Position numbers and translations under genes: made by a program
Origin: Branchiostoma floridae
Lineage: Eukaryota; Chordata; Leptocardii; Amphioxiformes; Branchiostomatidae
Assembly (NCBI RefSeq): GCF_000003815.2
Contig: NC_049996.1
Location: 16,532,930 to 16,596,929, forward strand
Direction: 5' to 3'
Length of the DNA stretch: 64,000 nucleotides
The notes under the pieces: generated by a model
What the model saw: the letters and a program-made list of their open reading frames with translations, nothing else
The model's database searches: none
Told to the model about the DNA's origin: nothing
Shown here: positions 1 through 38,035 of the stretch, piece after piece
Numbering within the stretch: the first letter of the stretch is position 1
How the letters are laid out: every line of letters starts with the position of its first letter

Positions 1-113
1 GTGACTACTGCGATCAATCCGATACATTTCATGCCAAAACTTTGTTACACAAACTTTGCTTAAAAATATCACAAATAAGATTCTAAGCTTTAAAGTGATG
101 TTCTTTGTTGCAG

Positions 114-360
114 GGTAAGACATCCGCGCAGACGATGATAGAAGCATCTAAAAGTTGGTGAGACGTGTTTTTCCATTAAACACAGCTGTTGGTTTTTGAT
201 AGAGCAGTACCCTTATCCTGTTTTGTCAATTTTAGTGTCAGTGTCTTTTCATCACTAACAATTCTGCTAGCATTTGTCTTGATTTCTGTGATTAATGAAC
301 AAACTATGATAATCATATTCTATTGATTCCAGGTTCTCATGGACTAAAGAAACAAATTAA
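114..360 (+). CDS. 3' end of an upstream ankyrin gene (copy 1, last two exons)
   Basis: Two terminal coding exons are visible, 114-157 and 333-360; the rest of the gene lies left of the window. The first is 44 nt, preceded by TTGCAG and followed by GTGAGA, and reads GKTSAQTMIEASKS. The second is 28 nt after TTCCAG, reads FSWTKETN and ends in TAA at 358-360. Both exons match the complete ankyrin gene at 8984-11971 in length and nearly base for base, but there the stop is TGA. An altered stop triplet that still stops supports a real terminal exon. A poly(A) signal follows at 439-444. The missing part presumably holds ankyrin repeats, as in copies 2 and 3. Direct splicing into the LRR exon downstream would create an immediate TGA, so this is a separate gene from the LRR gene that follows. 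Confidence 0.75.
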
Positions 361-438
361 AGTCATGATATTGGAATATGTACATTGTGAATGAATACTT
401 TATATGACTTGTATGGCCCGAGAATATATCAAAGCACC

Positions 439-444
439 AATAAA
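439..444 (+). terminator. poly(A) signal AATAAA of ankyrin gene copy 1
   Basis: AATAAA lies 79 nt after the TAA stop. The same signal sits about 75 nt after the stop in the other two ankyrin copies (12045-12050 plus; 59811-59816 minus), so its position is conserved. Confidence 0.6.
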
Positions 445-685
445 AAATTTGCATTATCTTCCTAAATAAGCTAGATCCATGAATACATTTTATGTAATGC
501 TTTCTCTATTGGCTTTATCAAGTACAAATATGCTTGCTATAAAAGATTGATTCTTTTCAAATTCTAGTAAATTTTACTTGAGAGCTGTTTATGTAAGCTA
601 CAATATCAATACCATGCTGTACGACTTCTTTTCTGCAACCAACGATAATGGTCATTGCAAAGCACTTTCTTTCCAAATGTTTTAG

Positions 686-3600
686 ACCTCCATCCAAAAG
701 TGGTGAATGGCGGACTCACTATCGACCTCAGTGGCAAAGACCTGACCTCCGTCCCAGCCGAGGTGTTTGACGCCACAGATATCGAACGCCTTGACCTGTC
801 TCACAACAGGCTGACGAGCATACCCGAGGAGATAGGTCAACTGCAGAAGCTTCGGGAACTTAAACTTGACAACAACCTGCTGATACAACTGCCACAGGCA
901 ATCACTACTCTACCTAACCTAGAGTACATGGAAGTGTCGGTAAACAAATTGGAAACTTTGCCTGATGGAATCTCCAGATTACAACTTCACGAGCTGTACG
1001 TCCCCAACAATAGATTCAAAGAGATACCAGACGAAATTTGTTCATTACTTCAGCTGAAAACCTTTTCCGTGGGACGCAACCCCCTCAAGTCTCTCCCTGA
1101 CAAGATATCTCAGCTCACAGGATTGAGAACCATGTTCATGAACAGCTGCCAGTTCGATGAGTTCCCCAGACAGGTGCTGCAGCTGGAGGGTCTGAAGGAG
1201 CTATACATGAGGAACTGGGCTGGGGAGGGCAAACCTTCACCTGTACCTAAAGACATCGGCACACTGAAGAACCTACAAGTCTTGGATCTGCGGAGTAGTG
1301 GCTTGGAGTCTCTACCGGATGGTGTTGGAGAACTGGAGCAGCTGAGGTACTTAGACATCTCCCGAAACAGGTTCACATCAGTTCCTGAGCAAATCATGAA
1401 CCTGCCCAACATTGAGAAGCTAGACTTGTCAGATAACAACATCTCCAGCCTTCCCCTGAGTCTGTGCCGATTGGCCAAACTGAAGGACATGGCCATCTCA
1501 GGAAACCCCCTGACATACCCTCCCGCTGATGTCTGTGATAAAGGCACAGCCGCCATCATGGACTTCCTGAGAAGGGAGTTGAAGAATATGGAAGGTATGT
1601 ATGGGGAGAAGATAGTTTTATTAGAAATTAGAAATACGCAATGTACTCGTAAATACCTTATACACCATATATGTGCTATTGGTTGTTGTATAGCCGGCAG
1701 TTATGTTATGGCTCAATATACACAAGGCCAGGTGAGAAAATTTACATGCATTATGAACACTATTATGTGTGCATGTCAGTGCATTGGTTGCTTTCAAGCA
1801 AAATCTATACAAACAAAATAACTTCAAACTCTGTTTAATGCAAATCTGATTGAAATGTATGAAGTTAATCACAATCATGTCGATATTATTTTCAATCACA
1901 GAGAGAGAACTGAGGAAAGTCTTCCACCGTTTCTCTCAAAGCGTCACTGAATCGAGTGAGGTGGAAGATCTGGGCGGAGCACTCGGGCTTACAGCAGATG
2001 AGATGATCAATATCCAAGTAAATATTTTCGTTTCCTTTAATCTTTCCTTTTGGTAACAGCTAAAGAAGTTTTGTGTGAGCCTGAAATATGGGCGACGCCT
2101 TTTCTCAGGCAAATATGTACACCTTTTCAGAATGTTACCACCAGAATTATGACTAAAATGTTACCAGCAAGTGGTATGTACTTGCTTATAATGGGTCACT
2201 GTATTAATGCCCTTCTGTTCTTAGGCTTCAAGGAACACAAAACCGAGTTCCCAGGCCTATAAAGTTCTATCGAAGTGGAAGGAGACGGACAGGGAAGCGT
2301 CCATGGACAAGCTTGAAAAGGAACTGAGTGAGTCTGGCATGAGTCATCTGGTAGAGAAGGCCAGCAGGATCCAGGTATTGGCATTAATCATAAGTTGGCT
2401 TAAATGTTAAGAATTCTCCATATTTTTCCATACATATTCACCTATAGCTGATCAATATGTTCCAGCTAACTTTGGATCTGACTTTCACAGTCCCAACCAG
2501 CTAAGCGACCGGCAGATACATCGGGTGGGCCTCCAACCAAGCGACGGGCAGCCGGTGGGCCTTCTAGTGTGAATAGTGAGGACAAGCTGGCGCAACTACA
2601 AGGGGAAAACCGCACTTTGAAAGCCCAGGTACAAAAACTACAAGGCAGCCAGAAGCCAAGAAGTCGAGGTGAGCTGGTTCAGCTAATATCTCTGGTACAG
2701 TATCCTTACAAGCTGCTTTGAATTTTATGCAAGGGTTTCCTGCAGCTAAAAAAAATGGTACCGCCTCACTCTTCTGCTTTGTTTCGGAGAATGATTTCCG
2801 TAACATTGGTGATGTTATGAAAATGAGTGCAAAATGAGCAAAGCATAGCACAAAATGCAAAGCTGTAGATTAAGACTAGTCTAATCAGGCAGCATTAAGT
2901 CACTTTAGATACTTGGCTTTACTACAGGCAGCTTGTATTCAACAAGTCTTGATATGTTAAAGTTGATGAAATTTTGTCAACATTGATGTCAACAGCTTTA
3001 TAACGAGTGCAGCTAGAGAATGTTTGCTTGTTTTTGCAGAACCTGGAGACAAGCCAGTCGTGATGCTGCTAAATGATGAATATGGGATCAGAAAGGGTGG
3101 TATATCCACAATCAACCGCGAAATTGGGTGCTTACTGGTATCCAAAGGCGCAGAGGTCCTTTGCACAGTCCTGAACGCCACACAACAGGACAAGGATGAT
3201 GCGGCCGCTGATGGAATCCGGCTGATTTTTCCAGCAACGTTTGAGCGCGATCCCAGAAAACCAGAGCTCCACTGGCTGACCTTTGACCACCAGACTCGAT
3301 ATCCAGACCTCCCCTCGCATGTGGACTTCATCGTTGGTCACGTGCACATCACAAGCCACGCAGCAAGACGAATCAAGGATCGCTTTCCTGTCGCCAAACT
3401 CGTCCAGGTCACGCACGTGATGCCTGAAGACACCAGCCACTACAAGGGTGTGGAGAGGGTGTTGAGCATCGGAAAGGAGAGCGACAACATTCTGGATGAC
3501 CTCCGACATGCTGATGTGATCTTCTCGGTTGGTCCATTGATGTATGACTACTACAAACACCAGACAAAGCAGTTGAAACTACCTCATCACAAGCTCTTGC

Positions 3601-4241
3601 CAAAGCCGTCCAACATCTTCATCAACTTGCACCCGGTACCACCCCTCGGCACGGAAACAAAAGTGGTTCTGTCCATCGGCAGGGTCAAGGGTGTGGAGAG
3701 GCTGAAAGGCTACGATCTAGCCGCAAAGTCGATGTGGGATGTGATGAAGGAACTGACCAACACAAAGTGGCGGCTCCGCGGTGTCACAAAGGAAGATTTC
3801 AGAGGCAGCCAGGAGATCATCAACGCGAACAAGGATAAAGTAGAGTTCGTACCGTTCACTCCGCTTGAGTACGGCACACAGGAAGAGCTGCGCGATGACA
3901 TGGGAAGGGCTGATGTCGTGCTGATGCCGTCCCGTGCAGAGCCGTTCGGACTGGTTGGTCTGGAGGCCATCGCTGCAGGGGTGCCAGTTGTGATTTCCCA
4001 CAAGTCTGGTCTTGCGAAGTTCCTGAAGACGCAAGACCCCGAGTTCGACCGCACGATCGTAGAGATCGGAGATGACGACGACAAAGCCGCCCAAACCCTG
4101 TCCAAGCGCATCATCGATATCCTGAAGGATGGACCCAGAGAGTTTCAGGCCGCACAAAGTTTGAAGAAGAAACTTTTGGACTCAAAATACTGGACTGAAT
4201 CACACACCAATGTCCTCCAAACCTTTGGCCTGGAAGGCTAA
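686..4241 (+). CDS. LRR - death domain - glycosyltransferase (GT4-like) fusion protein
   Basis: Five coding exons join in frame: 686-1594, 1902-2017, 2225-2374, 2491-2668 and 3040-4241 (stop TAA). The first coding exon with the start Met is not identified; this reading frame has no ATG before the LRRs. Residues 1-303 hold about eleven 23-residue LRRs of the IPxxI type. Residues 304-391 form a death-fold domain split over two exons. Residues 392-451 are a short basic, partly coiled linker with an NLS-like KRPADTSGGPPTKRR. Residues 452-850, in one 1.2-kb exon, are a GT-B glycosyltransferase. It has an N-terminal GGISTINRE loop and a C-terminal donor-site EPFGLVGLE (EX7E, near 3939-3965) followed by AIAAGVPVVIS, typical of GT4. 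No signal peptide or membrane segment is seen, so a cytosolic or nuclear enzyme is likely. Its substrate is unknown. The LRR-death part is paralogous to 12292-13936 and 57969-59646, which carry other C-termini. Confidence 0.82.
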
Positions 4242-4640
4242 ATCAACACATTGCTTTGATTTCTGCCTTTATAACATTCATTTAATACCTTTATCTTGAT
4301 TTCTCTGTGTTTGAATTCTATGTCTTGGCCCTCAGAATGCTGACTCCAGTCCAAACCTATGCACCAAAGGCACGTTGTAAAAGCTGTCTTGAGTAGCACA
4401 CTTGCGAATAGTTGTCCAACTATTCCATACGTCATGAAGACTAGTGGTGTTTAATGTACAACAATGGGAAGTACCCAAATCAACTCTCTGCGTGTCTCAA
4501 AGTCTCGTACATCCCACTCTTTCAAAGTGAAGAAGATTATATATAGCTATAAGTCATAGATCCCTGAGGATTCTTGTACTTATAACTATTCAATTTGTCA
4601 CTGGCCACGGCAACACTACATTCCAGTCTACTGTTTATTT

Positions 4641-5185
4641 AGACTTTGTCAAATCTTGCACAACAGTGTGATGAGTTATTGGATTTTATGCATTTGTATA
4701 TTTTATGATGATGTTTGTAACTCTAAAATTGCTGAACATTTTAGTATATACAGACGAAGCTTCAGGTTGTATGGTTTAAGTTGCCTCTACATGTAAATTT
4801 GTAAAGCTAGTCTCTTCAACTTTTACTTATCTACTGTACAATCAAGATGACAAGAAGAATAAATGCCAATGATGTACTAAAGATGGAATTTGCTGCTGCA
4901 ACCACTTGGCTAATGCAGATACTTAGACTTTGTCACATCTTGCACAACAGTGTGATGAGTTATTGGATTTTATACATTTGTATGTCTTTATGATCATGGT
5001 TTAAAAGCTTCTGACTTAAAATTGCTGACGTTTGTAGAATACACAGATGAAGCTTTAGGTTGTATGATTTGGTCCGCCTCTATAGATCTACATGTACATT
5101 TGTCAATGCTGCTTTTTGTAAAGCTGGTGTGATTAGTACACTGTATATCTACTGTTACAAGACGAATAATTGCCAAACCTTTTGG
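4641..5185. repeat. Two-copy tandem duplication in the 3' flank of the glycosyltransferase gene
   Basis: Two imperfect copies of about 280 bp begin at 4641 and 4925. Both start with AGACTTTGTC, a TCTTGCACAACAGTGTGATG block, and later share an ACAGATGAAGCTT-like segment and a CAAGACGAATAA-like end. An AATAAA at 4858-4863 in the first copy is a plausible poly(A) signal for the gene ending at 4241, giving a 3' UTR of about 600 nt. Confidence 0.6.
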
Positions 5186-5410
5186 CTAATGCGTATATAA
5201 AGACGAACAACATCCATGTACAAACATGCATAAGACTAAGCATCAGATTAAACAAATCATTCCGGACGCCATTTGCATTGTATTCTGCCAATAAGGATGT
5301 CGTTAAGCCGGCTTTACAATTCATGCGGACGCCGGCCGAATTTGTAGCTCGGTCAGAGCTTGCTGAATGTCAACATCGCCCGAGTATCGGCTGTATTTTT
5401 CGCTGAAAAT

Positions 5411-6480
5411 CTGCCCCCTTTACAAATGGACGGAGCCCGTCCGACGTCCGTCCAATACAACTGATTATAATTTGTTAATGAGATTGTGCTATGTCTTGAA
5501 CATGGACGAAGACAGAACTGACTAACCTGAAAAAGCCAATATTGTATCAAATTTAATGTCTGAGTCTGAGTTGCGGGATATATGTAGGACATGGGTGGAG
5601 TGGACGGGCACACTGCAAACAATGATATCAACAGGAATGTTGTGATACACCGATCCGAAAACTACCACAAGAGCCACAAAGTGAACAGACCAGTCTTATT
5701 CACCATGATACAATAATTTTGACAAAGCTGAAATCGGGCGGACCTTGGGCGAACCTCGAGCCAAGGCCGGCAAAGGCCGTCCGAGTTTCAGACTGGAAGC
5801 CTTCAGACATTAAGAATATATGATCTCACACATCCAAACCTATAGCAAAAAAATAAATAGGAAGCACTGTCTTCGTGCCAAATTGCCTTACATTATAAAA
5901 GGTACGCAGCTTTCTTAGAAAAGTTCATGCAGTAGTCTTTATTTGTCTTATATTTCGGAACAAACTGTTAACTAAAGATGAAAGCCCAAAACAAAGGCAC
6001 GTGTTCAACACAGGTGTCAAATTGATTAGGTAACAGTTAAAGTAGCGACAACAGCACAACGCTCGCCCAAAGCACGCCAAACTTGTTAAAAGTCGGACGG
6101 AATATCGTCCGGTTATTGCAGGAAGCCTGAACGAGTCTGGCGCGAGGCAGAAGAGTTCGGGCAAACTCCGACCGAAAAAGAGAGAGTCAAAAACCGTCGG
6201 GTTGCCGGCCGAGTATTGGCCAAGTCTTGGCCATTGCTCGGACAAGCTCCGGTCGAGCTACAGGCAACCCATTGACGAGCTCTCCGAGCTCAAAGCTCGC
6301 CGCCGAGGCCTCGCTGAAATTAAGCGCAGCGGCAAGTGCCCCGCAAACGCCGGCCGAGCTGCTAAAATTCGCTCGAGGTCCGCATAATCGGCAAAACGCC
6401 GGTCATACTCCGGCCGAAAATGTCTATTTGGAGCTCGCCAACAACTCGGCCGAGCTAAATTCTTGATTTGTAAAGGGGCT
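5411..6480. mobile_element. Putative non-autonomous DNA element with short inverted ends
   Basis: GCCCCCTTTACAAAT at 5411-5425 is matched inverted by ATTTGTAAAGGGGC at about 6466-6479. The interior is unusually rich in GGCCGAG / CTCGGCC words compared with its AT-rich surroundings, especially 5740-5790 and 6100-6450. No transposase reading frame is present. The short ORFs here look like by-products of the G+C-rich repeats. A target-site duplication is not obvious, so the element boundaries are uncertain. Confidence 0.35.
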
Positions 6481-8525
6481 TTTATGAAGGCAATCGCAAG
6501 GCGAAACTTCCCACTAGGGCAAGCTTGGGTGTATCTTATATTACCGGTCTAAGAAGTACTAAGCATAGACCTTTTCTGTCAGCCTGTCTTTCCAACAAGT
6601 GTTTCTGTCGACCCGTTACTGAATTGAAACAAACCCCGTAAAACCTCCCCGGCGTACGCTTGTGATCTGGGCGGGCGGACAACACTTTCAGCACCGTAGG
6701 CGTACCGGGGAGCTTACGGTCGTTACCAATTTAAGGCCACCATTAAATTGAATATGATTCGAATTGTTACAACTTCATTACTTCTCAGAGTAGTAATTTA
6801 TCCTTTGCTGAATCAAGAAAAATGACAAACTGTTTTCGCCCGTTGCGATGGCAACACGGCAATCAGAAATCCTAAAGCCCTAACCCGTACCGCTTGGCAT
6901 ACTGTTTTCAGTTCCTTACACAATCAATATACATGTAGCAACACTGAGAACGTGAATGATATGATCAGTGCACATTGTAGTGAAGCTTGTACGCATGATG
7001 CGCCGCTTGGCGCCGCTTTGGGTACTGCAGCTCCAGCACACCTGCCTCCTATGATTAGCATAACAAAGGCTGCTGGGAGTCGCCGTCAGGTGACTAACCC
7101 GGAAGTCAGGTACGGTTTCAAAACTTAAACAGGAACTTCTTTCTTTGCCGGTTTCTCCGGACCAACAGAACTTTGCAATCTTCCCAAGAACACCTTAAGG
7201 TAAGTCAGAGAAGTCTTGTGAGGCTGCAGCTGGTATATAGATCCTAAGGTTCATTTAAGGTTCCTTCTAAGCTCGATTCCGGAACAAAACTTTCTACCTA
7301 AAGCTCCTTAAAGTTTCGTACCTACCGTAGCCCTGGAACAGGACAATATCAAGCTCGAGGAGGAATCCAGCGTTAGTAGTAGTGCAAACCGTATCTTAAT
7401 TTCAATCTTGAACTGTTACAGTAATTCTCTCCTAAAGATCCTGTAAATGGTTAACCTTGTGCTAGACATCAGTTTGATAGAAGAAATTTGATGTCAAATT
7501 AAAGTGACATATTTTCTGTGTCTCTCTGCACTTCATAGCCCCCACCCTACCCCCGTGTGGAACACTCCACAGGTGTAAACTTCAGACTGTTATAAAATTA
7601 ATAAACTTCCTTGGATCGATAGATGACCTGTGTTGTGCCGTTTTTTTGGCAAAGTCTGTCGAGGAATGATAAGAAAAGCTAATAGACTGTAGGAATACCA
7701 CAATGATTATGACATAAAATCAATGCTTCTTTGATTCATGCAGTATAACATAAACACCTCCCTCCCCACCCTCCATAACTCAATATAGGTCTTCTTCAGT
7801 ACAACCGTTAAACACAAAGCAAGTTTGACTCCCATGTTGTATTTGAGCTAACTGAATCTCAGTGCATTGTTTGCTGCCAACTCCCTCCCGGTGTTTAACA
7901 TACACAAGGTACTCCATGCGTGACGCCTGCTTTTTCGTGACGACCGTCTTACTTCGAAATCCATGACGTTAAGTCAACTTAGTTAGGGAATGACAGAGAC
8001 AATATCGATCAAGGGGGCACCTGTACAGTTTTGAGAGCTTACTGTAAAGATAAGAATAAGTCAAAAGGGCAAACACAGTGCTGTTTAACCTGTCACGTAC
8101 TGTTCCTGTACTGAACTAAGGCACTTGTGACCTTTCGACCTTGTACCTCAATGGCGGACGGAGCACTACATGTTTAACGTTCCTGCATATTTAGTGGTGT
8201 ATATTTGAGGAGGAGGGGCGTCGTTCATGTATCAACAACAGGTTTGTACCTGACGTTACTGTTTTCGTTCTTGACGACGTCACTATTTTGGCTTGAGATG
8301 ACACCAGATATCTGTACGACTTTATGCACGAGGGGGGTAACTTTCAACACCTGTAACGGTTATGTTTACACCTTTGATCACCTGCATGTTTACATGTTTA
8401 CACCTGCCGGCTCTCCTGGCAACACCTGCCATCATGTATGATATTTTATCAATGTTACTTTGTACGATTCAATTTCAGGAAGAAAAGAATGAAAGGTCTA
8501 CATCGTTCAAATGGTACATTTAGGT
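6481..8525. other. Intergenic stretch without a recognised gene
   Basis: I see no convincing coding exon. The stretch holds homopurine and homopyrimidine patches and a few short ORFs with no recognisable domain. A sequence starting ATGGCGGAC at about 8152 stops after eight codons and is not supported as a gene. Promoter sequence of the ankyrin gene starting at 8984 is probably in this region or just after it, but no TATA-like box stands out. Confidence 0.4.
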
Positions 8526-8706
8526 TAGCCTCCATAGCAGGCTCTCTGAGGCCTTTTTTGGCTCATAATACACATTTGCTGGCCATTTGTTTTTGTACAG
8601 GGTCGCTGATTGCTGGCTTCTCTGACTGCCGGCCAGTCACCCAGTACAAAAAGTAATGGTGTATTATGAGCCAAAAAAGGCCTCAGAGATCCTGCTATGG
8701 AGGCTA
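8526..8706. mobile_element. 181-bp MITE with long terminal inverted repeats and a 9-bp target duplication
   Basis: The element begins TAGCCTCCATAGCAGG and ends with its inverted complement, CCTGCTATGGAGGCTA. The arms stay complementary for about 48 bp with a single small interruption. It is flanked on both sides by CATTTAGGT (8517-8525 and 8707-8715), a perfect 9-bp direct repeat. The centre holds a further hairpin (TTTTTGTAC / GTACAAAAA). There is no coding capacity. A 9-bp duplication with long inverted ends is typical of Mutator-type (MULE) MITEs, although hAT-like elements (8 bp) cannot be fully excluded. Confidence 0.85.
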
Positions 8707-8983
8707 CATTTAGGTGTATATCATTGTTTATAATGGACCAAAGACATAGTGACTTTCTCTACAACCAGCTCGTCGGACTGAAGCCACATGCACCTCTACT
8801 GATCTGAATGGAAAACAACATCTTCGGTTTATGATAAGGATCACCGTGTTTTCTTTACCTTTTCCGTTTATAGAGAACAAAAATCTACTTAAGAATCACC
8901 TGAATCTGACCTAGCGGATTTGCGGCATCCGGTCACGAGGCATTGGCGTGTTTGGCGCATCAGCAAAATTACAGCAATAACTC

Positions 8984-11971
8984 ATGGAGGAGAAAGAAAA
9001 GGTTGGTGAAACTATTCTTTTCAAGTTAGCAGTTCAGATAAATGAATACGGCGCACGACTGCACCATGTAGGGAAGTGCAACAGACGCATTCCAACAAAT
9101 GCTTTCGCTGAAAAGTAACCTCTGCGTTTCCTGAGATCACCTTCTAAATCATGCTTGATGTTGAAAAATTAACACATAGACAATGCTAACAATTCTATTG
9201 CAACATGATAACACTCGAATAGGAATCGTGAATGGTCTGACGTGTTGAGGATACTTTCAACATCTCCATTTTGGTACATTCTGGACCGTCTACCCATAGT
9301 GCCCTCGTGCCCCCCAGCATTCAAAGGGATCTGCGAAGAGGTCCTTTCCTCCCGAGTGTGCAAATTTCCTCCCTAAAGACTCAACAACCAGCAGTTCTAG
9401 CTGCTGAAAAGTCTTGTCTCAAAATAACATTTTAAATTTATACAGTATTAGACCTAAGAACCCTGAACATACAAAGATTTTCATGTTGGCTGAATGTTTC
9501 TGTTCCACAGGAGCTGAGAGATGCCGCCGGGCGAGGTGACGAGGTCAGAGTTCAGCAGCTCCTAGCCGAGGGAGTCAATGTCAATGCTGAAGACGGCGGC
9601 CCCGTGAGTCAACATGTCTGTTTGTTGTTTAAACAACGTCATGAAGGACTTAATCAACTCTTTAGTGCCCCTTTTTTGGTTTGATCTTTGCATCATATCC
9701 CTTTGCAGTGTTAATTCTTAAAGGTTGATAATATTATCTATTTGTTGGTTTAATAAGCTTCCCATATAGAGTCAGTGAAGTCAAGCTTGCCCAAGCCTAA
9801 TGTTTCTGACTTGGAGAGAAGAGATGATGATACAGTTCTTATTAGCCTGACGCGCCCCTAGCGGCCGGCCCTACAATAGCCTCCGCTCGGGGAGGGGGTC
9901 ATCAACTCCAGCCAGCGAGAGATTGTGTGAACACAGGTGATGGTAACATCAGGCTCTTTGAACTTGATTTAAAGAAAAAGAGCATTAAACAACTTGAATC
10001 CGTGCCCTTAAACAATGTGAGAAGTTACAGGATGGCTGAGAAGGTCATGACATAAATTTTACATCTTAACTCGCCTGTTCTTGTCTCTGTACAGACCTCC
10101 AGATGGACTGCCCTTCATCATGCATCTTCGAACGGCCACACTGGAATTGTACAAGCGTTACTCACAGCTGGAGCGAGAGTCGACCCACGAGCCTACATGG
10201 TAACTTTCCTGTTTACTTGAGTCTGTCATACTGTCCATGTACAGGCTTCACTCACAACTAAAGGCTGTATTGTTTTGGCAAGAGTTTATCCGTGTCGGTC
10301 CAGCTTTAACGGTCCTGGGTTTGTTTTGGAGTCATGTGAGGACTTTTGTAACGCATGTTTGATGTGAGATCTAGATTTATTCATGTTCCCTGTGTACACA
10401 AGCTTAGGAGCCCTATCAACCTTGCAAACAGGAAGGAGCACATAGACATGCATCATATTAACAGTTGCTATGTTCCCTATGCAGAGATATACCCCTCTCC
10501 GCAATGCAGCTTCGAACGGACAGACAAGAACTGTGCAGGCTTTACTGACAGCTGGAGCAGACATTAATGCAAGAGACCACAGGGTGAGTTTGTTCACTAT
10601 GGGGTCATATGGATGACCTAAGACCTGCTCACATATGGCATGAGATTGTCCTGCAAACAATCCAACAGCTACAGCTGTGCTGAGATATACCAGATCTATT
10701 CCCATGGTCATAAAGAATGTGGGCAGGCATATGTTTCTCTTAGAAAATAGTGTAGAAATATCAGAACTAGAAAGTATTTCATTGCATGGCGCCTGAACAT
10801 TTAGGCGGGAATATTTCTATCTGTATAATACATAACAACGCATGCGCATCAGAACTTAGTAATCTAAATCTCTTGCATATAAGATACAAATTTAAAAAAA
10901 ACTAATTAAACCATGGTTAGCATGTAAATCCTGTGAACCACCCGCCACTTTGTTGTACCTACAGAATCGGACCCCCCTTCATAAGGCGGCAGAAAATGGG
11001 CACCCCGAGTGTGTTAGAGCACTTCTGAAGGCTGGAGCCAACACCGTCAGTAGAGACGAGGTAAGTGACTTTATCAAATGTCAATGGAGAAAGTGAAATC
11101 GCTATATAGACTTCTAACTCACCGTTTTTATTCTGATTTTGATGTTGTAGTTATACTTTTACTTCAGACTTTAGTTCGAAAACCTAACAGATAAACTAAG
11201 ATGTAAGATTATCATATTAACACAAACTTAACAGATCAGTAAAACTTGACCTATTCTGTGCTGCTGTTGTAGGTTTACTTCCCCAACCGATGCGGTTTGC
11301 TGTTGTATGCCGCATTTAAGTGAGAAATCCCCCAAACCCGTAAAGATACTGAAGCCACATTCAGGCATCATATAAGTGCAACCCGTATATATACGGGCTC
11401 AGCAGGACAAGGGTTTTATGGCAGTTAACACTAAACACCATTTTTTTATGATGATGACGTTAAGTGTCAACAATAGCTTGTTGACGTGTGTTGACTTTAT
11501 CTACAGGACAAGAAGACAGCAGAGGAGCTTGCAGTACAAGAGGACGTGCTGCAGGTGCTCCAGTACTTCAAAGTAAGCCCGAGATACACCCGTTAGTAAA
11601 ACATATAACTCGTGACTACTGCGATCAATCCGATACATTTCATGCCAAAACTTTGTTACACAAACTTTGCTTAGAAATATCACAAATAAGATTCTAAGCT
11701 TTAAAGTGATGTTATTTCTTGCAGGGTAAGACATCCCCGCAGACGATGATAGAAGCATCTAAAAGTTGGTGAGACGTGTTTTTTCATTAAACACAGCTGT
11801 TGGTTTTTGATAGAGCAGTACCCTTATCCTGTTCTGTCAATTTTAGTGTCAGTGTCTTTTCATCACTAACAATTCTGCTAGCATTTGTCTTGATTTCTGT
11901 GATTGATGAACAAACTATGATAATCATATTCTATTGATTCCAGGTTCTCATGGACTAAAGAAACAAATTGA
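8984..11971 (+). CDS. Ankyrin-repeat protein (copy 2, complete)
   Basis: Eight exons join in frame to about 182 residues: 8984-9001 (MEEKEK), 9511-9603, 10095-10199, 10485-10583, 10965-11060, 11507-11572, 11725-11768 and 11944-11971 (TGA). The start is chosen because the inverted copy 3 has the same mini-exon (MEKEK) with the same GTTGGT donor. Four near-canonical ankyrin repeats follow, one per exon: AAGRGDEVRVQQLLAEGVNVNA, TALHHASSNGHTGIVQALLTAGA, TPLRNAASNGQTRTVQALLTAGA and TPLHKAAENGHPECVRALLKAGA. A degenerate half repeat (DKKTAEELAVQEDVLQVLQYFK) and a short unique tail complete the protein. Repeats this regular suggest a cytosolic binding scaffold; the partner is unknown. The LRR-death gene begins about 320 bp after the stop, an arrangement seen in all three copies. 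Read-through to it is out of frame. Confidence 0.85.
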
Positions 11972-12290
11972 AGTCATGATATTGGAATATGTACATTGTG
12001 AATGAATACTTTATATGTATGGCTCGAGAATATATCAAAGCACCAATAAAAAATTTGCATCATCTTCCTAAATAAGCTAGATTTATGAATACATTTTATG
12101 TAATGCTTTCTCTATTGGCTTTATCAAGTACAAATATGCTTGCTATAAAAGATTAATTCTTTTCAAATTCTAGTAAATTTTACTTGAGAGCTGTTTATGT
12201 AAGCTACAATATCAATACCATGATGTACGACTTCTTTTCTGCAACCAGCGATAATGGTCATTGCAAAGCACTTTCTTTCCAAATGTTTTA
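11612..12290 (+). repeat. Near-identical copy of the segment 1-685 (recent segmental duplication)
   Basis: Bases 1-685 and 11612-12290 can be read side by side with only scattered substitutions and one or two small indels. They cover the end of the ankyrin gene, its poly(A) signal and the spacer before the LRR exon. Introns and spacer are as similar as the exons, so this is a recent duplication or gene-conversion tract and not only conserved coding sequence. Confidence 0.85.
12045..12050 (+). terminator. poly(A) signal AATAAA of ankyrin gene copy 2
   Basis: AATAAA starts 74 nt after the TGA stop at 11969-11971. It is in the same place as in copies 1 and 3. Confidence 0.6.
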
Positions 12291-12291
12291 G

Positions 12292-15200
12292 ACCTCCATC
12301 CAAAAGTGGTGAATGGCGGACTCACTATCGACCTCAGTAGCAAAGGCCTGACCTCCGTCCCAGCCGAGGTGTTTGACTTCACAGATATCGAACGCCTTGT
12401 CCTGACTAACAACAAGCTGAACAGCATACCCGAGGAGATAGGTCAACTACAGAAGCTTCGGACACTTAAACTTGACAACAATCTGCTGACACAACTTGCG
12501 CAAGCAATCACTACTCTACCTAAACTACTGTACATTGACGTGTCGCACAATAGGTTGGAAACATTGCCTGAAGGAATCTCCAGGTTACAACTTCACGAGC
12601 TCCACATCAACAACAATGAATTCAAAGAGATACCAGAAGAAGTCTGTTCACTACGTCAGCTGAACACCTTTTCCGTGGGAGTCAACCCCCTCAAGTGTCT
12701 CCCTGACAAGATATCTCAGCTCACAGGACTGAGAATCATGTCCATGAACAGTTGCCAGTTCGATGAGTTCCCCAGACAGGTGCTGCAGCTGGAGGGTCTA
12801 GAGGAGCTATACATTGGGAACTGGGCTGGGGAGGGCAAACCTTTACCTGTACCTGAAGACATCGGCAGACTGAAGAACCTACGAGTCTTGGATCTGCAGT
12901 ATAGTGGCTTGGAGTCACTACCGGATGGTGTTGGGGAACTGGTGCAGCTGAGGTTCTTAAACATCAAAGGGAACATGTTCACATCAGTTCCTGAACAAAT
13001 CATGAACCTGTCCAACATTGGGAAGTTAGACTTGTCAGATAACAGAATCTCCCGCCTTCCCCTGACTCTGAGCCGATTGGCCACACTGAAGGACATGAAC
13101 ATCACTGAAAACCCCCTGACATACCCTTCCGCTGATGTCTGTGAGAATGGTACAGCCGCCATCATGGACTTCCTGAGAAGGGAGACAAAAGAAGGAGAAG
13201 GTATGTAGGAAAGAACTTTTTTTGATGGAAGTAGAAATTTTACATTCTTACTATTGAACTTGGGCAAAAAAATAAAAGATGATCTTATCTTGTAAATGTA
13301 GGGCAAAGTTATTTCTAATTACATTGTTTTCATGTCAAAAACATTTTTTTCATGTCAAAAATAATGCACCCAAATCACACCATTTCCTACGCTTTTCATC
13401 CATGTTAACATTTAATGTCATTTCGCTGTAAATAATGAGAAATGTAAACTCAAACATAGACCCTCGGAAGCCTTTCGTTACTTTTTTTGTCGCGCGGTCG
13501 TGGAAGAACTGGGGTGTGCACCGTTAACTCTAAATACATCTATGTTTTGTTTCTTGCAGAGAAAGAACTGGGGAAACTGTTCTACCGCTTTTCACAAAAG
13601 GTGACGCAAAGAGCTGAGGTGGAAGCTCTGGCCGCAGTAGCTGGACTGAAGCCTAGCGAGAGGAACAGTTTACTGGTAAATGTTTCAGCACAATTTTCAG
13701 AACAACGTAATTGTCAACCTTTACAACTGTATTTAAACCATGATTCTAGTTTACTGATGCAACTTGAATGGATGTTCTGATTTTAGGGAAAAGACAAGAC
13801 GAATCCAAGTTACCAGGCCCAGAATGTTCTGTTGAAGTGGATGGAGAAAGACCAAGAAGCGTCCATGGACAAGCTTCAGCGGGAGCTGAGGGATATCGGC
13901 ATGGAAACACTGGCAGAGGAGGCCGGCCGGATAAAGGTATTCCGTCATACTAAATTGTACTAATTGAACCACGATACGTTGTGAACATTACACTCATCAC
14001 AGCTAAGTACACTACGGATATGTCGGTTATTTTGTGGGTTACAAACAGTTCGTTCATTACTGTCATTTTTAAAATTCCACATTAGCGATTCAAGCGGCCG
14101 GCAGATGCATCTGGCGGGCCACCTGCCGGAGGGTCTCTTGTGGGGCACCAGGAAGAACAACAGACCAAATACAAAGAGAAGATCGGACAGGCAGAACAGA
14201 AGATTGTACAGATGCAGCATCACAGTGAGGTTCAGGAGGCCATGGTCAGCAGTCTTCGTGCAGAGGTCACCAGGTTAAGCGACAAGGACGAGCGGGCACA
14301 GAAGGTCCTGCTGGACCACAAGCAGGAGATACAGCAGCTTCAGGAGGATCATGTTGCCATGGCAACCCGGTTGGAAAACTTTGTAGAGGAAAACGAGAAG
14401 CTGAGAAGTCAAGTCGTTCTTCTTGGGGGCGAACAACATGGTATGTATTTACTCATGATATTGTTTTTTTTTGGTATTGGTATTGAGACATCGAATTATG
14501 TAAAAGACATGAGTGAATGATGACATTATTCTAATGATGTCTGAAAGTTGTTTAATCTGAATTCATCACAACAACGAGAAATGGGATCAAAGGGTAGTAG
14601 CTAGGTACGGATTCTATCCTTATTGTTGTGTAGCTGTGTTTTTGATACTCATTGTTTGCATGATGTTGTTGGTATCGGGTAGATAGATGGCTTTATCATC
14701 AAGATGCATGTTGTTTTCATCTAGATCTTTCGGGCGAATGTAGGTGACACTGAGGATTACATCACTATCTCATCTATAACTTGTAGAAACTGAGAGCTGA
14801 ATCACTCTTATTCTAACTCTGTCCACAGGTGACGAACAGACAACTGAGTTGTTTGAGCGGACCATCCTGATGTTTACTGAAAACGTCCTGCAGAAGTCCA
14901 GACAGAGAGAACCAAACCTGGAGGAGACCGAGCTTGCTACTTCAGCAGGCAAGTGTGTTTATGCAGCTTCGGTAGGCAAGTGTGTTCTTACAGCTTCAGC
15001 AGGCAAGTGTGTTCTTATAGCTTCTAATGTACAACACCAGCAAATATCAAAACAGCAGATCTATCCTTTATCTTTGGTTGCATTTGACATGGCATGAAGC
15101 TGTTGTGCTTGAATTTTCATCGTCATTTCAATGAGCAATGGGTCTTTATTCCACTCCCTCAAACTGTAACGGCTTGCCTCTTTACTGCAGAGCTATTCCA

Positions 15201-18200
15201 AAACATTCTTGTTTAGTCAGAAACAGTGACACGTTGAATCAATGAATGACGTTCGGGCTGATTGACTCATTACAATATTAAACTCACATTCATGAACCTT
15301 GTCCGTTCTACAGAAAGCGAGCTGCTGACCAAGCTGAGCTGCAGACTTGGTCCTGACTGGCGGCGGCTGGGAGCTGCGCTGGGGATCCCACAGCCACGAC
15401 TGGACAGCATACAGGCACGGTACAGCAACGCCATCCAGCGGGCCTGCAAGGTACTGACGGTCTGGATGGGTGGAGGGGACCACGGACTTCCGCACGACCT
15501 CAAGCAGCTGGAGACAGTCTTAGCAGACATGGACAGGGCTGATCTCTTAGACTTTGTGAAAACTGCCTATAAGGTACGTATGGTTAAGGAGTCTTAGAAC
15601 AAATGGACAGGGCTGATCTCTTAGACATTGTGAAGGCTGCCTAGCTACAAGGTCTGGTTAAGGAGTGGAGTCTTAGACCACATGGACAGGGCTGGTCTCT
15701 TACTTAGACATTGTGAAAACTGCCTAGAAGGTACGTATGGGAGTCTTAGAACAAGTGGCCTAGTAGCCCTGGCTAAGGAATATCAGAAGACTACCTCAGG
15801 GCTGATCTTAGACATTGTGAATACCATCCAGAAGGTTCGATAGGTTTAGGAATATGCTGCTATTAACAATGTTTATGTAATTATGAAACGCTCCAAATTT
15901 CTGACACAGTAGGTTTAAACCTTGTATCTTATAATCTTCCCCACAAGGACTACATAAAGGAGATGCCGGAGATGGAGGTGGAACCCGAGGCTTCCCTGGA
16001 TGAGCAGGGAGTTACGACATGGTGAGGCTGGTTCTGTTACTTAAAATTTTACGTTATTCTTTCGATCAACACTACAAAATATAGATCCTGTTAAAAGTCA
16101 GTCTGGATACCATCCGGGTAGTAGTTCGCTCCGACGTCGACGTTTATTATAATCATACACTATATGCAGTCGCTTCTCTGGTAGTGTTGCGGGAGGAACT
16201 AAGGTCTAAGTTAAGGTCTCTGGTAGCGCATATAGCAGAAGGGAGCGAACTACTACCCGGATGGTACCCTTTTGCAGGATGGCTTTTTACATTATTATTT
16301 TTTAAAGTATATGTATAACAAGAAATTATATTGTATTAGAGCATTGCCGCCCATAAAGAGTGGACATTTTTAGGGTAACCTCATTTGTATTGATGGCTAA
16401 CTCTATTGTTGGTTGTTAGGTCTGTCCAACTGCCCGGCCGGGGGAAGTACGTCTGCAAACAAACCGACCTGGGGGTCGTTACCCCCTGCCCTGTCCAGCT
16501 GACCTACAGGACAGTGAACCCGTCTGAGCATTGGCCGGAGAACGAGGACTGGGAGCTGATTGGTCCGCTGTTCCACATCCAGTGTAACCATGACGACGGC
16601 GTACCTGTGGAGCTCCTCCTACCGCACATCCTGGACCTGACACAGGAGGATGGCAGCGGTGAGGACTGTGTTTTTTTTTTGTACACGCTGATTTCTTAGT
16701 GCTAGTCTTATTTGAAAGATACGGCTTCTTTCCTTCTCATCAACTCACCACCAGCATCGCTCCCTCTTCCCCCAGCTCTCACCACGGATGAAGCCAAGGC
16801 TGCTCACGTTGTGGCGGGAAACACAACACTTCACCCCGCTGACGTCACGCCCTCCCACGTCATCACCAGGCATGTGAAGGGAAGTCTGTGGGCTTCTGTA
16901 CTGCAGAAACTCCGATCCTTGTCCATCAACAGGAAGGGCCTGCTTACGCTCTTCAAAGCGTCTCCGACTCAGGACGCTGTGGATGTAAAGGCTCACATCG
17001 TTACAAACACGAAAGACATGGTCAAGGTCAGTAACTGTAACCTTATTCTTGGTGGGCTGCGATCTTGTGGATAAAGGACATAAAGTGGGGAAACACCGTG
17101 TAAATGCTGAGGTTATAGAAGAGTGTAATACTTGGTCCCAGTGGAAGATATACCTGACATTTCATGAGACCGTTGATGCAATGGCTGCACCTTGATTAGC
17201 TTTCGTTGTTTTTTATTGGTGTTGGTGTATTGAACATTTCCATTCGGATTTTGGAAAGTCTGACAACTATGAAACTTCTGGCAAGTGCTCAGCTACCTCC
17301 ATCATTACATTACGCGATGTTGTTGTTGTTTATGTTGTTTCTTTGTTGTTGTTGGGAGGACCTGTCCCAGCTGGTCCCGCAGTTCTACCCTTGGGACTCC
17401 CTCCCCTGCTCCTTCCGGCCTCACCAGATCTACTGTCTGTAGGCATCAGTGGATGTTATTGTTTATGTTGTTTCGTTGTTGTTGTTGTTTAGACCTTGCA
17501 GGAGGACCTGTCCCAGCTGGTCCCGCAGTTCTACCCCTGGGACTCCCTCCCCTGCTCCTTCCGGCCTCACCAGATCTACTGTCTGCAGGCATCAGTGGAG
17601 AACGGAACCTTGGCTCATGCGGAGCCGGAAGTACATTTCTGTGTTATATTTGGGAGTGTGTAGTTGATTGGTGATGATGATAAGTAAACATAGCATCTTC
17701 ATTCAGCAACGTTGTCATTGCTAACAGTGATTGTGTGCACCTGGGTTTCCTGTCTTGGAAGTCTTACTTCAGATGACAAAACTCCTCTCCTTTCCTTTCC
17801 ATCCATGTCCTTATGGTTAGTCTTTTATCGTCGTTGAATATAAAAATGTGCGTTGTTGAATTTAAAATGTGACTTTAAATGCATGTATCACTTAAAACAT
17901 CTCCTTGGGCTTTGCGAGAATTTTAATACATGTTTAAACAACGATGCCCTTTTTAGCCACCTGAAGGTTTGGAGTATGAAGACACATTCGATCGCAACAG
18001 GATCTACCCGTCCTTCCACATGGCGGTTCACCGACAGCCGGACAGGGAGCGCCTGCAGCACCCACAGTTAACTCTGAAGCTGTTTCAGGCGGAGGACAAT
18101 CAAGTCGTCTGTCGGTGTACAAGAGACCTGTGTAAGAATTCATATCTAATTCTCAGTCACACGTAGCCTCTAACAGGTTTGCGAATCGTTGGTCAAATAG

Positions 18201-19132
18201 TAGGAATTGGGAGTTGGCCGGCCAGAGGAGTCAGTACACGATCCTCTTAAACGCTCCGTGGATTGTTGGTCAAAATGTAATGATTGGACAAATAGAGTGA
18301 GCAGTGTAATAGGGGAGTAGAGGAGTCAATACACGACAATCCACAGAGTCATATTCACTGTCAATAGATCGATTACCATTGTCTTGAATGCTTGTCTTAT
18401 CAATGTGAAGGAAATAGTTATCATCTGAGGAAACTTGGACAGTCTATTTGGGGGGTGGGGGGTGGTCTGTAACTGGTCTAGTTCATATCATAAAATGAAA
18501 TCATAGATAGTAAAATACGACAACTGTGCAATGATTATCGTAGTAACTGACTCCAGAAACAATTCTTTGTTTATCCAAGATGGCGAAACCGCAGGTGGAC
18601 AGACCTTCAGCTCAGGTGAAGGTCAGTTGATACAAATACTACAAAACAGAATCATATATATGCCATTGGGTAGTTGGTTAATATCTACTATTTTCCATTG
18701 CATTGTATTGTTTTAGCACGGTGCAATCCCTTGTATATGTGTAAGCCTGATGTAGACCTGTTCACTTTGATAGCACATTGCTTTAAATTTTCTTTTAGTA
18801 AACACAAATTGACAAGGCACTGCAACCTCGGTAAATGTAACTTTCCCTGTCTTCATCTCCCATCTCTAACAGATGTCCGACGACACTTCTTCTTCATCAA
18901 AGAGAACGTAAGCACGGATTGGAAAGACCTGGCTCACTTACTGGGCTTCACCAGGCCTGACATCGACTCGATCCAGTACAAACCGGCCAACCGCGACGCC
19001 AAGGACTGCTGCATGGACATGTTGGAGGCGTGGCGGAGGCGGAGAGGCGACGCCGCCACCTTACAGGTGCTTCTGCGGGCTCTGACTGAGGCTGGACTAC
19101 AGGACATCGTGGATAAGCTCAACAAAATATAA
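12292..19132 (+). CDS. PIDD-like protein: LRR - death - coiled coil - death - ZU5 - UPA - death
   Basis: Thirteen coding exons keep frame throughout: 12292-13200, 13560-13675, 13787-13936, 14086-14440, 14829-14948, 15314-15573, 15948-16021, 16420-16658, 16776-17026, 17493-17630, 17957-18131, 18580-18615 and 18873-19132 (TAA). The first Met exon is not found. From the first LRR codon: LRRs 1-303, death domain 304-391, linker and heptad-rich coiled coil about 392-510, second death domain 551-636, ZU5 about 661-760, UPA to about 930, C-terminal death domain 942-1026. LRR-ZU5-UPA-death is the PIDD1 order; the extra death domains and coiled coil are not in vertebrate PIDD1. PIDD1 is a scaffold for caspase-2 and NF-kB signalling. 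The HF/S self-cleavage motif of PIDD and FIIND proteins is not seen: the matching place reads RHVKGSLW. The donor after 14948 is GC (CAG/GCAAGT), and exon 7 has an AAG acceptor. Exons 10 and 12 are the least certain. Confidence 0.82.
14937..15025 (+). repeat. Three in-frame 27-nt repeats, each carrying a GC splice donor
   Basis: The motif TCAGCAGGCAAGTGTGTT (TCGGTAGGC in the middle copy) recurs at 27-nt spacing from the end of exon 5 of the PIDD-like gene. Each copy contains an AG/GCAAGT donor consensus and keeps the frame open, adding GKCV-type nonapeptides. Use of the first donor at 14948/14949 joins in phase with exon 15314. The later donors would add 9 or 18 residues in frame. Confidence 0.65.
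15520..15840 (+). repeat. Tandem copies of the 3' end and donor of the second death-domain exon
   Basis: The end of exon 15314-15573, including GACAGGGCTGATCTCTTAGAC, the TGTGAAAACTGCCTA stretch and its GTACGTATGG donor, recurs in degraded form at about 15604, 15681 and 15795 in the following intron. The copies are broken by TAG triplets and small indels. The repeat unit spans the exon-intron junction. Confidence 0.75.
16108..16266. mobile_element. 159-bp MITE-like element with perfect 25-bp terminal inverted repeats
   Basis: The left arm at 16108-16132 begins TACCATCCGGGTAGTAG. It is perfectly complementary to the right arm at 16242-16266. The element lies wholly in the intron between exons 15948-16021 and 16420-16658 of the PIDD-like gene and has no coding capacity. 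I see no clear target-site duplication. Confidence 0.7.
17354..17456 (+). pseudogene. Duplicated, broken copy of a UPA-region exon
   Basis: About 100 bp repeat most of exon 17493-17630 of the PIDD-like gene (GAGGACCTGTCCCAGCTGG onward) almost exactly. This upstream copy lacks the TTTAG/ACCTTGCAG acceptor context, and CTGCAG has become CTGTAG, an in-frame stop. It is flanked by GTTGTT-rich polypyrimidine-like tracts that are themselves duplicated. Inclusion of this copy would truncate the protein, so the downstream copy is taken as the working exon. Confidence 0.7.
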
Positions 19133-21990: not shown

Positions 21991-24900
21991 CCCTTGTGGA
22001 AGCTGGCCACACTGGAGCCCTGCAGTTTTGTGCCGTTGTTGACAAACAGCTCGGTGATGTCCGGACCCCTCACTGCATTTTTAATTCGCAAAACCTGCAG
22101 GCAAGCAGAAAAAGAAATACTATTCATACATCAAGTTATGGTTTAGATATTGGGTGGGCCGACTACTCTCTCTCTTTGCAGCCAGGGGCTGATCAATGAT
22201 CAATGTTCAGAGCAGATTGTAATCTTTGTCTGTAAATATCTAAAGAGTCAGAATTAGTGACTAAACAGAAAGGATTTGGCAGTACAATGAATCACACTCA
22301 GGGGTCCCATGGATTGTAGTGAATAATGGATGTAATTAAATGACCTGTGCCCCAAGTGGGTCCTATGGGTTTTAGTGAATCCTGAGCCCGGGTGGGTTGT
22401 ACAGATTGTAGTGAACCATGGGTGTACTACTGGCAACCTGTGACCTGGGTGGGTCTCATAGGCAGTAGCAAGTCATGGGTGAGCTCCATGGGTTGTAGTG
22501 AATCATGGGTGTACTAACCTGTGCCCCGGGTGGGTCCCATGGGTCATAGTGTATCAGGGGTGTTTTTCCGATGACTGGGTGCAGGCCGATGTACAGGTCC
22601 CCAGTCTGAGGGTCCACCTCTATGTTATCCACAAAACTGTGCAGAGGCAGCGACTGGGAAAACAAAGGTCATGGGTTGAAGGCCAAGGTTCAACTCAATT
22701 ACAAGGAGAATGTATTGAATGATGTGGGGCAAACTGTATTGCTCATACACAATCCTTCATATTGGTTGTATGATTGCTATTAAGTTTGAACAAATCTTTA
22801 CTACCCTCTATGACATTTTACTATCTGACCTTGACCCCACTGACCTCTATCTGACCTCTACTGACCTCTATCTGCTCCAGACTGTTGTTTGCGAATCTCC
22901 TGAAGATGCGCAGCTCTTCTGTGAAGCCTGCTCCGACATAGAGGTACCTGGAAAGGTGACACACAAACAGGTATGTAACCTTGATAAGATTAGAACATAC
23001 TGATTTAGTTTCATACTTCATTGACATTTTTGGCACACAATCAGCAAAATCTTCCACATGCTGAAGGTGACTACCTAAGCGAGAGACCTTCAGAAGATCG
23101 ATAGCCTACCATGGACCCAATGTCTGGAACAACCTACCACCAGACACATGGAGGGACTTTTGAAGTAAAAGAAATGACCAAAACGACCGGGCACGGACTA
23201 TGAACGCTGAGCTTTTGCTCTACCATGTATACACTCTCTGTCTTCATGTCTACCTTGTCCCCCCAACGACCCGGAGGTCAAGGGACTAGGTAGGTAGGTA
23301 GGTAGGTATACATGTATGTATTGTACCATGTACATGTAGTGCTATATGTTGATAGATTTATTAGGACTCAATGTAATCTGTGCCTCTCTTATATTTTATC
23401 TGACCCTGACCTCCCTCATGACCTCAATGAAAAGCAGCCTGCAGGCCAATTTGAGCTTCTCATGAATAAACAAAGGTTCAAACAAACAAATCAACAGAAG
23501 ATTAAACCAACCTCCTGTCTGGGGACATGTTAACTCCGTTCGGGAACACAAGACCCTCCGCGACTGGCCGCGCCTGCGTGCCGTTGTAGAACACGACATT
23601 TCCAAATGGCAGGAGGAGATACGTCTCTAGTTTCCGTGCGAGTGTCGACCCTCTCGCGCCGTGCGAGACATCGTTTGTGAGGTAGAAGGAGTCCGGACCC
23701 AGCGCTAACAAGTCATTACCACTGGAGGGGATAGAGTTTGGTTTTAATGCGCAGTTAGATGAAAAAGGCTTTCTACATACATTTACAAAAATGGAGATGG
23801 GCACCACCCCTATGTATCTGATACACTGTAACTTTTAATATATATGCAATGAATTACAAGCATATTTACACTGGTGCTTCCTATTTATACCAATGCTGAC
23901 TTATTCACCTAGACAAATCCATTACTGAATAACAACACGTATGTAGGCATGCAATGTATACAGTGACATCTAAAAACAAAACATTGACTCTTCCTTATAC
24001 CATTTCAACCCGGCACCTTGTCTGTTTTGTTTTCTGTTGCTTAAAAAAAACTTAAGTGAAAAACATATCAAAGTACAACACACCTGTACTGAATTGTTCG
24101 TACATACCTGTATATAAGCTCGTCCCTGATGGTCTCCTGGTGTTCCAGTGTTTCCGTGGCAACGTCGTACGTAAACACCTCCACCTGGTCCTTCCTCCTC
24201 TGGTGGCTGATCACCAGGACACTGATCCTTCCTAGGTAAACAAACAAACAAAGTTGTAAACAACAGCAAGCAACTTGGGCTTGTTCTCTTATGGCAATGT
24301 TGATGTTCTAACAGAAGCATGCATTGCTTGGCACCTTACACACACTTGAAGGTGTGCACTCTAAGCTTGTTGACTTGGAAATTGGAATATAATTAATGAA
24401 TCAAGATTTTGAGCTTGAACCCTTGCAGACCGGCCCCCGAAAGCCATGCCCTTGGGAAAGGCACTTTTTTTTACACACAGGCAAACATGAGTACCAAGCT
24501 TTGGTTTATTGGAACATTGTCTTGGATGGGAGGCCCCAGTTATGAGGAGAGCCATACCTAAAGTACATTAAAGACATCATCATACTTATCAATAAGAGTG
24601 GGGGTTCTCCCCGGTGTGGTTACTGCACTGCAGTTCCTGTGTGTCCTGCTGGAGGGGGTTAAGTCTCTAACTGCCTTGTTCTTACCCGAGAGTGGATCGG
24701 TCCACACGCTGAGTCCGTGGGGGTTGAAGTTCTCCCGGTCAAACTCCTCGCTGAAGTTCAGCTCCTTCACACCGCTCTCAGGGTCACTATAGTTAAAGGT
24801 CAGGATGCGACCTCTGACTTCTGACCTGCCGTGAGGGAACCCTGGGAGCCAGAGGCCCTGCGGGAGGGAAATATGTCACCTAAGCCAATCAGCACTCTAC

Positions 24901-34640: not shown

Positions 34641-34696
34641 ATGGCGGACACTCTGTCTGAAACAGAACATCTTCGGCTCGGCAGTGTTTTAATGAC
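34641..34696 (+). CDS. Possible first coding exon of an unidentified gene
   Basis: A good initiation context (CAAAATGGCGGAC) opens a frame reading MADTLSETEHLRLGSVLM. It ends exactly at a strong donor, GAC/GTGAGTAC. The upstream 60 bp are comparatively G+C-rich. I find no convincing in-phase second exon on the plus strand, so this may be the start of a gene with a long intron, a retro-copied fragment, or chance. Confidence 0.3.
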
Positions 34697-34699
34697 GTG

Positions 34700-38011: not shown

Positions 38012-38035
38012 GGTTCAGTCTGCAGGAGAGAGGGT

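Follow-up and report, generated by a model that had tools for sequence, protein, structure and literature searches.

In the accessible passages of PMC8195603, GT4-conflict effectors are described in two settings that come closest to the genes treated here: metazoan GT4-TRADD-N-LRR proteins, in which GT4 stands before TRADD-N and the leucine-rich repeats (LRRs), and bacterial conflict systems of the LRR-AP-GTPase(Roc)-COR kind, in which at least 24 domains are interchangeable, GT4 and trypsin among them. The genes in question lie in a stretch of 64,000 nucleotides (nt) of the Branchiostoma floridae genome (513 Mb), at C18:16532930-16596929 (hereinafter the window; C18, C4 and the like are contig labels). 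Loci A (686-4241), B (12292-19132) and C (52566-59646, minus strand) share a platform composed of an LRR exon, two Death exons and a KRPAD linker exon. Pfam identified three different outputs after the linker, as an earlier sequence-only reading of the window had stated: a GT4-conflict glycosyltransferase in A, FIIND plus Death in B, and Roc-COR-Death in C.

PF20706, lineage-specific expansion in an animal, and the association of GT4 with LRRs and immune adaptor domains are common to the metazoan GT4-TRADD-N-LRR proteins, as far as the passages of PMC8195603 describe them, but here ankyrin, LRR, Death and linker precede GT4, and TRADD-N was not matched in the scanned exons at E thresholds of 0.01 and 0.05. 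With the bacterial LRR-Roc-COR systems of the same passages the family shares fast-evolving LRRs, Roc-COR, and swappable outputs with GT4 and a trypsin-like protease, whereas LRR-Death is what stays constant in it, Roc-COR being one of the swapped outputs. Diversifying selection at concave LRR positions and exon shuffling are shared with brown-algal ROCO genes, which are candidates for immune receptors, in the accessible part of PMC11378527; single-LRR exons are shuffled there, and whole front ends and outputs here. Coral NACHT-glycosyltransferase proteins likewise place a glycosyltransferase on an immune receptor scaffold (accessible part of PMC4083563), but neither NACHT nor NB-ARC was matched by Pfam in the scanned exons of A, B and C (introns were not scanned). 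Judged by the domains found, the family is not NLR. The sequence-only reading knew of no named system of this kind; the passages of PMC8195603 lack this layout but do describe GT4-conflict proteins, LRR-Roc-COR systems whose effectors are interchangeable, and trypsin-like effectors. An ankyrin-LRR-Death layout with swapped outputs was not found described in open-access text, and the figures or supplements of PMC8195603 may show it. Published work on conflict systems has described the parts, and their combination appears to be a new one.

The platform was identified at 12 loci genome-wide, where the sequence-only reading had seen three copies, all of them real. Eight loci fall within about 170 kb of contig C18 (A, B, C, P1, P2, P3, P4, P8), and the others, named by contig, are on C4, C5, C11 and the fragment C21. 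The LRR search of the genome gave at least 104 matches at E 1e-20 (125 of 1,483 candidates scored). Identity was at least 68% at 11 loci (12 rows, gene C being split), and the next-best loci fell to 36-45% across the bulk of the exon, with up to 55% in short pieces. The second Death exon was found in 12 places (20 of 20 candidates scored), namely the 11 LRR loci and C4, whose copy had no LRR match in the 5 kb read upstream. The copies occupy separate positions on several contigs, which rules out assembly duplication of a single locus, except perhaps for the 3.8-kb C21. GT4 lies directly 3' of the platform at seven loci (P1, P2, A, P8, C5, C11 and C4; that of P8 was assigned by coordinates alone), and the Death-linker-GT4 order is kept at these seven, on four contigs, six of them with the LRR exon. 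Two loci, B and P4, are of the FIIND-Death type. Three are of the Roc-COR-Death type: C, P3 (assigned by a COR identity of 91.6% to C) and C21, which is seen only at its start because the available sequence stops inside the first Roc exon. GT4 domains number at least 57 in the whole genome (57 of 102 candidates scored).

In A, B and C, the LRR exon is 909, 909 and 908 nt long and the Death exons are 116 and 150 nt each, with AG/GT borders at the platform exons and KRPAD near the start of the linker exon, which confirms the lengths reported previously; the 1-nt frameshift in the 908-nt exon had been missed. Pairwise DNA identity is 86.7-89.0% for LRR exons and 64.7-94.0% for Death exons, a resemblance that is not due to chance. 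When spliced, the two Death exons form one Death domain (the pairs of A and B were scanned in spliced form), with a Pfam score of 36.7 bits (E 4.8e-9) in A and 20.7 bits, slightly below the 22.6-bit cut-off, in B. Intron phases are identical in the three genes, 1 before the LRR exon, then 1, 0 and 0, and 1 after the linker. The platform is therefore a unit flanked by phase-1 introns on both sides, an arrangement that would meet the requirement of exon shuffling.

Gene A was joined from the LRR exon (686-1594, plus strand, phase 1 at both ends) through Death exon 1 (1902-2017), Death exon 2 (2225-2374) and the linker exon (2491-2668, phase 0 in and phase 1 out) to the GT4 exon, which is single and contains the stop (3040-4241; PF20706, 2.1e-75, 254.6 bits against a cut-off of 26). 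The result is one open frame of 850 complete codons with AG/GT borders, the first LRR codon needing one upstream base. The linker consists of KRPADTSGGPPTKRR followed by a likely coiled coil, for which matches were below the cut-off only. EX7E is the catalytic motif of GT4 enzymes, and its counterpart EPFGLVGLE can be read in the sequence of gene A.

Trees were built by maximum likelihood from the upstream, LRR and Death segments and compared by the approximately unbiased (AU) test, using 10 of the 11 LRR-bearing copies (C21 was left out, as in the segment identity table). The trees rejected one another in all six comparisons, with p-AU of 3.9e-88 for LRR data against the Death-segment tree and 1.7e-5 for the reverse; the weakest was LRR data against the upstream tree, with a p-AU of 0.02 but a p-SH (Shimodaira-Hasegawa) of 0.34, that is, not rejected. 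The mutual rejection of LRR and Death trees indicates that front ends and outputs have been reassorted. Sequence identity also shifts abruptly along the genes. P1 and B are 98.2% identical in the LRR exon, while in the next intron P1 is 99.7% identical to P2 and 42.9% to B; the GT4 proteins of P1 and P2 are 94.4% identical. P3 and C have the Roc output in common (COR 91.6%), with only 66.4% identity in the first Death exon. The noncoding DNA before the LRR exon (window 1-685 and 11573-12291) is 97.6-99.9% identical among A, B, P1 and P4, and their LRR exons are 83-98% identical, a pattern that points to recent gene conversion whose edge lies close to the LRR exon.

For the LRR exon, omega (dN/dS) was determined in nine of the 11 copies, leaving out C (frameshift) and C21 (a run of N). 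The concave positions were taken as the 55 x positions of LxxLxLxxN and are thus set by motif, not by a structural model. There, two estimates of omega were 2.78 and 2.88 for A, B, P2 and P3 (bootstrap 95% interval of the second 1.74-6.10; elsewhere 0.53 and 0.54) and 1.73 and 1.76 for six copies (second 1.20-2.74; elsewhere 0.37 and 0.38); all nine gave 1.45 (elsewhere 0.40). The bootstrap intervals exclude 1 in both sets tested, and framework leucines and asparagines gave 0.18-0.19. Of 300 column sets drawn at random for each group, none attained the observed dN, and 1, 1 and 0 attained the omega observed for four, six and nine copies, respectively. These values support diversifying selection at the concave positions, the pattern expected of a recognition surface. 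Most outputs, in contrast, appear to be under purifying selection: omega was 0.18-0.36 for GT4 (15 pairs of six copies, trimmed exons), with 0.29-0.36 for gene A against the five others, and single pairs gave 0.31 for COR, 0.08 for Roc exon 1, 0.35 for the protease described below, 0 and 0.28 for the FIIND exons and 0.41 for the last Death domain of B; Roc exon 2 was left out of these values because intron sequence with stops had shifted its codons. For the ankyrin repeats, comparison of four exons between the three window genes gave 0.34-0.55.

Drawing on domains, intron phases, reassortment, diversifying selection on the LRR face and purifying selection on most outputs, all read from sequence, we consider the best explanation to be one family of 12 loci encoding immune-type receptors, probably cytosolic, with swapped outputs (probability roughly 0.6). 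The modular sensor with one front end and alternative outputs that the sequence-only reading had proposed gains from the AU-test reassortment and the recognition signature of the LRR. As regards location, ligand, assembly and effector action, we infer a scheme in which ankyrin repeats and LRRs would form the front end and the concave LRR face would bind a variable ligand, either a pathogen molecule or a guarded host protein. Ligand binding would let the Death domain and linker assemble and thereby engage the output module: a glycosyltransferase that would modify a target, a Roc-COR GTPase that would act as a switch and has a C-terminal Death domain (with the gene of a FAM111-like protease as its neighbour), or FIIND-Death as a signalling module. 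New pairings of front ends and outputs would arise by duplication and by recombination via introns of matching phase. If this is true, the logic of bacterial conflict systems, one sensor with many interchangeable effectors, operates in a chordate, and recognition and output evolve separately in a family of only 12 loci, which can be tested in full.

Ankyrin exon 1 was found upstream and on the same strand at all eight LRR copies on C18, as the sequence-only reading had noted for its three. On C4 and C5 it is also upstream but at a larger distance, about 26 and about 21 kb, respectively; C11 and C21 gave no match in the genome search, and the 13 places matched in the genome include three away from the platform. 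The 66-nt ankyrin tail is open in 11 of 11 copies and preceded by AG in 10. The ankyrin side ends in phase 0 and the LRR exon requires an extra base; nine of the 11 LRR exons have no in-frame ATG. Between them, all 11 copies carry CAG/G/GTAAG, an acceptor, one base and a donor. Splicing in this single G gives an open ankyrin-LRR join in every copy. At 9 nt, it is the longest invariant run in the alignment of the interval (the next is the LRR acceptor, 6 nt, then runs of 4) and the sole exon candidate with both borders invariant. Within the window, CAGGGTAAG occurs three times, on both strands and once per locus, against a chance expectation of about 0.5 under equal base frequencies. The putative 1-nt exons are at 114 in gene A (motif at 111-119, plus strand), 11725 in gene B (CAGGGTAAG at 11722, plus) and 60113 in gene C (minus). 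Single-base exons have reportedly been found in other work.

Other ways across the interval were tried. A direct splice from ankyrin tail to LRR exon was rejected, phase 0 into phase 1 being out of frame, and so was an internal coding exon made up of the 44 nt that follow CAG, which has the wrong length and a stop. A 13-nt exon (acceptor AAG, donor TTG/GTGAG) has a weak acceptor and occurs in eight of the 11 copies only, and an LRR start inside the interval would have an in-frame ATG in P8 and C only. Exons of 1, 7, 10, 13 and 22 nt can each be found somewhere in all 11 copies.

The sequence-only reading had seen separate small ankyrin partner genes. In such a paired two-gene system the ankyrin gene would end just after the CAG acceptor (in B, GKTSPQTMIEASKSW and then a stop) and be polyadenylated before the LRR exon, the LRR gene starting elsewhere. 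Read-through past CAG does hit a stop within TGGTGA in eight of the 11 copies, and AATAAA is present in the interval of nine. However, the TGGTGA end is lost in C5, C11 and C21, where CAGGGTAAG is kept; most LRR exons lack a start codon of their own, as stated above; the interval yielded no alternative conserved first exon for the LRR; and short and long forms could be isoforms of one gene. We regard paired genes as a serious possibility, though not the preferred one, and favour ankyrin and LRR exons as parts of one gene, the former probably being its 5' exons, with a transcript that would run through the 1-nt exon. The stop and AATAAA leave room for a short ankyrin isoform. It is tempting, if still speculative, to go further and propose a chordate innate receptor family in which the concave LRR diversifies, the front end is recombined with three enzymatic or signalling outputs, and the conserved 1-nt exon joins or separates ankyrin and LRR parts, so that splicing decides whether a short ankyrin protein or the full receptor is made.

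It is very improbable that LRR-Death exons and outputs are adjacent but independent units that do not form one protein. Gene A alone was joined from the LRR exon to the output end, but its linker/output intron is phase-matched with an open frame through it, and the recurrence of the Death-linker-GT4 order on four contigs argues for one protein. Several observations weigh against the receptor reading as a whole. The closest solved relative of the LRR, LRRD1 (9ijj, 9fqr), is not an immune receptor by name, and the next PDB matches are a Leptospira-type LRR protein (we take the LIC-named entry to be from Leptospira) and SHOC2, which would suit a duplicated and drifting structural or signalling family of LRRD1 or SHOC2 type. 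Whole-exon pairwise omega of the nine open LRR exons is 0.37-1.01, so that the excess depends on the positions chosen. All 14 prokaryote genomes used as controls contain PF20706 matches above the cut-off; the model therefore marks the GT4 fold family broadly and is alone no proof of a conflict role. Still, a non-immune family is unlikely, as omega above 1 is confined to the concave positions and the outputs are common to described conflict systems. The same balance includes the frameshift in the LRR exon of C, an in-frame TAG in the ankyrin exon 1 match of P2, no clear purifying signal in the ankyrin tail (pooled omega 0.87) or in two Death domains (DD_B2 1.30, DD_C 0.72), and gene conversion, which may distort pairwise omega. 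The frameshift and the TAG, with the near-identical noncoding DNA of A, B, P1 and P4, are what mostly decayed copies kept similar by gene conversion would show; yet all nine other LRR exons compared are open, as are all six GT4 exons compared, with omega of at most 0.36, and pseudogenes are the least probable of the explanations considered. Two gaps in the gene models also count against the receptor reading: a phase mismatch between 15573 and the FIIND region of gene B, where one exon is unplaced, and the start exon of B and C, which did not turn up in the A and P4 stretches that were read.

This possible first coding exon of gene B (8984-9005, plus strand), which starts with ATG and is common to B and C, was rejected as a general family start for that reason. 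The ankyrin exons of B start at 9511, 10095, 10485 and 10965 and end with the tail at 11507-11572, all in phase 0, and match PF12796 when joined (5e-33). They are followed by the LRR exon (12292-13200), Death exons 1 (13560-13675) and 2 (13787-13936), the linker (14086-14440) and the exons at 14829-14948 and 15314-15573, the latter encoding a second Death domain; the frame is open from LRR through this domain. The donor at 14948 is apparently GC (AG/GCAAGT), with the frame kept. The output continues with the FIIND (ZU5) region in two exons (16427-17029; PF13553 6.9e-27 for the joined exons, 94.1 bits against a cut-off of 25.8) and a third, C-terminal Death domain with the stop (18878-19132; PF00531 5.3e-16). 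Of the CC-death-ZU5-UPA-death order read previously, Pfam recovered Death and FIIND (ZU5) but not UPA. Like PIDD1, NLRP1 and CARD8, B and P4 contain FIIND; they have it together with Death, and their LRRs are on the N-terminal side as in PIDD1, but they differ in their extra Death domains and ankyrin repeats. FIIND proteins undergo autoproteolysis at an F-S pair. This pair of CARD8 has no counterpart in B and P4, where RHVKGSLW, with G-S, aligns to CARD8 SFS (a weak match, E 0.003), which makes classical FIIND autoproteolysis doubtful. A 133-146-nt piece, 88% identical, is duplicated in tandem 3' of the FIIND exons (17321-17599), and its first copy runs into a stop.

Gene C, on the minus strand, comprises ankyrin exons (60267-62372, the first from 62372 and the tail at 60332-60267), the LRR exon in two overlapping frames (58739-59646), Death exons 1 (58299-58414) and 2 (57969-58118), the linker (57223-57448), Roc and COR exons spanning 53422-56895 (Roc PF08477, COR-A PF16095) and a C-terminal Death domain with the stop (52566-52832; PF00531 1.7e-10). 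The Roc-COR tandem that defines ROCO proteins is present in C; no Roc-COR match was found in the scanned exons of A and B, which are therefore not ROCO, leaving C as the sole one of the three. Ankyrin, LRR, Roc-COR and Death all occur in the ROCO group of LRRK1, DAPK1 and MFHAS1, but C has Death between LRR and Roc, and no kinase was found in its scanned exons.

Directly 3' of gene C, an intronless open reading frame on the same strand (51357-52319; PF13365 3.4e-14) encodes a FAM111-like serine protease, which matched FAM111A at 8.4e-11 with the His-Asp-Ser triad in register. Among 34 COR loci genome-wide (37 matches before merging), four have such a frame on the same strand no more than 2.2 kb 3', one of them a COR remnant, and 12, including three in the platform cluster, have a GT4 on the same strand at a distance of at most 15 kb. 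The expected number of 0.06 in this analysis assumes uniform placement and is uncorrected for clustering. Eight of the nine COR-GT4 loci outside the cluster have GT4 on the 3' side, and the nine are probably ROCO-GT4 genes; examples are C10:17026122, C5:23590647 and C17:3109822. From these neighbourhoods, GT4, Roc-COR and the FAM111-like protease seem to form one repertoire in this genome. An orphan ankyrin exon 1 lies between P1 and P2 (C18:16447631-16476921), accompanied by a COR remnant of 74 codons and by a FAM111-like protease; together they may represent a Roc-type copy that has decayed.

Elsewhere in the genome, C231 carries a dense array of LRR exons (about 13-585 kb), mostly 40-45% identical to the platform LRR and with long LRR frames; one such frame that was read on C231 and a relative on C204 both start with MAAGLNLQ. 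On the minus strand of the window, an arylesterase (paraoxonase-like) exon was identified at 23505-23834 (PF01731 3.1e-14), and I-set immunoglobulin exons, some of them duplicated at the DNA level, were found in three scanned stretches at 31501-38014.

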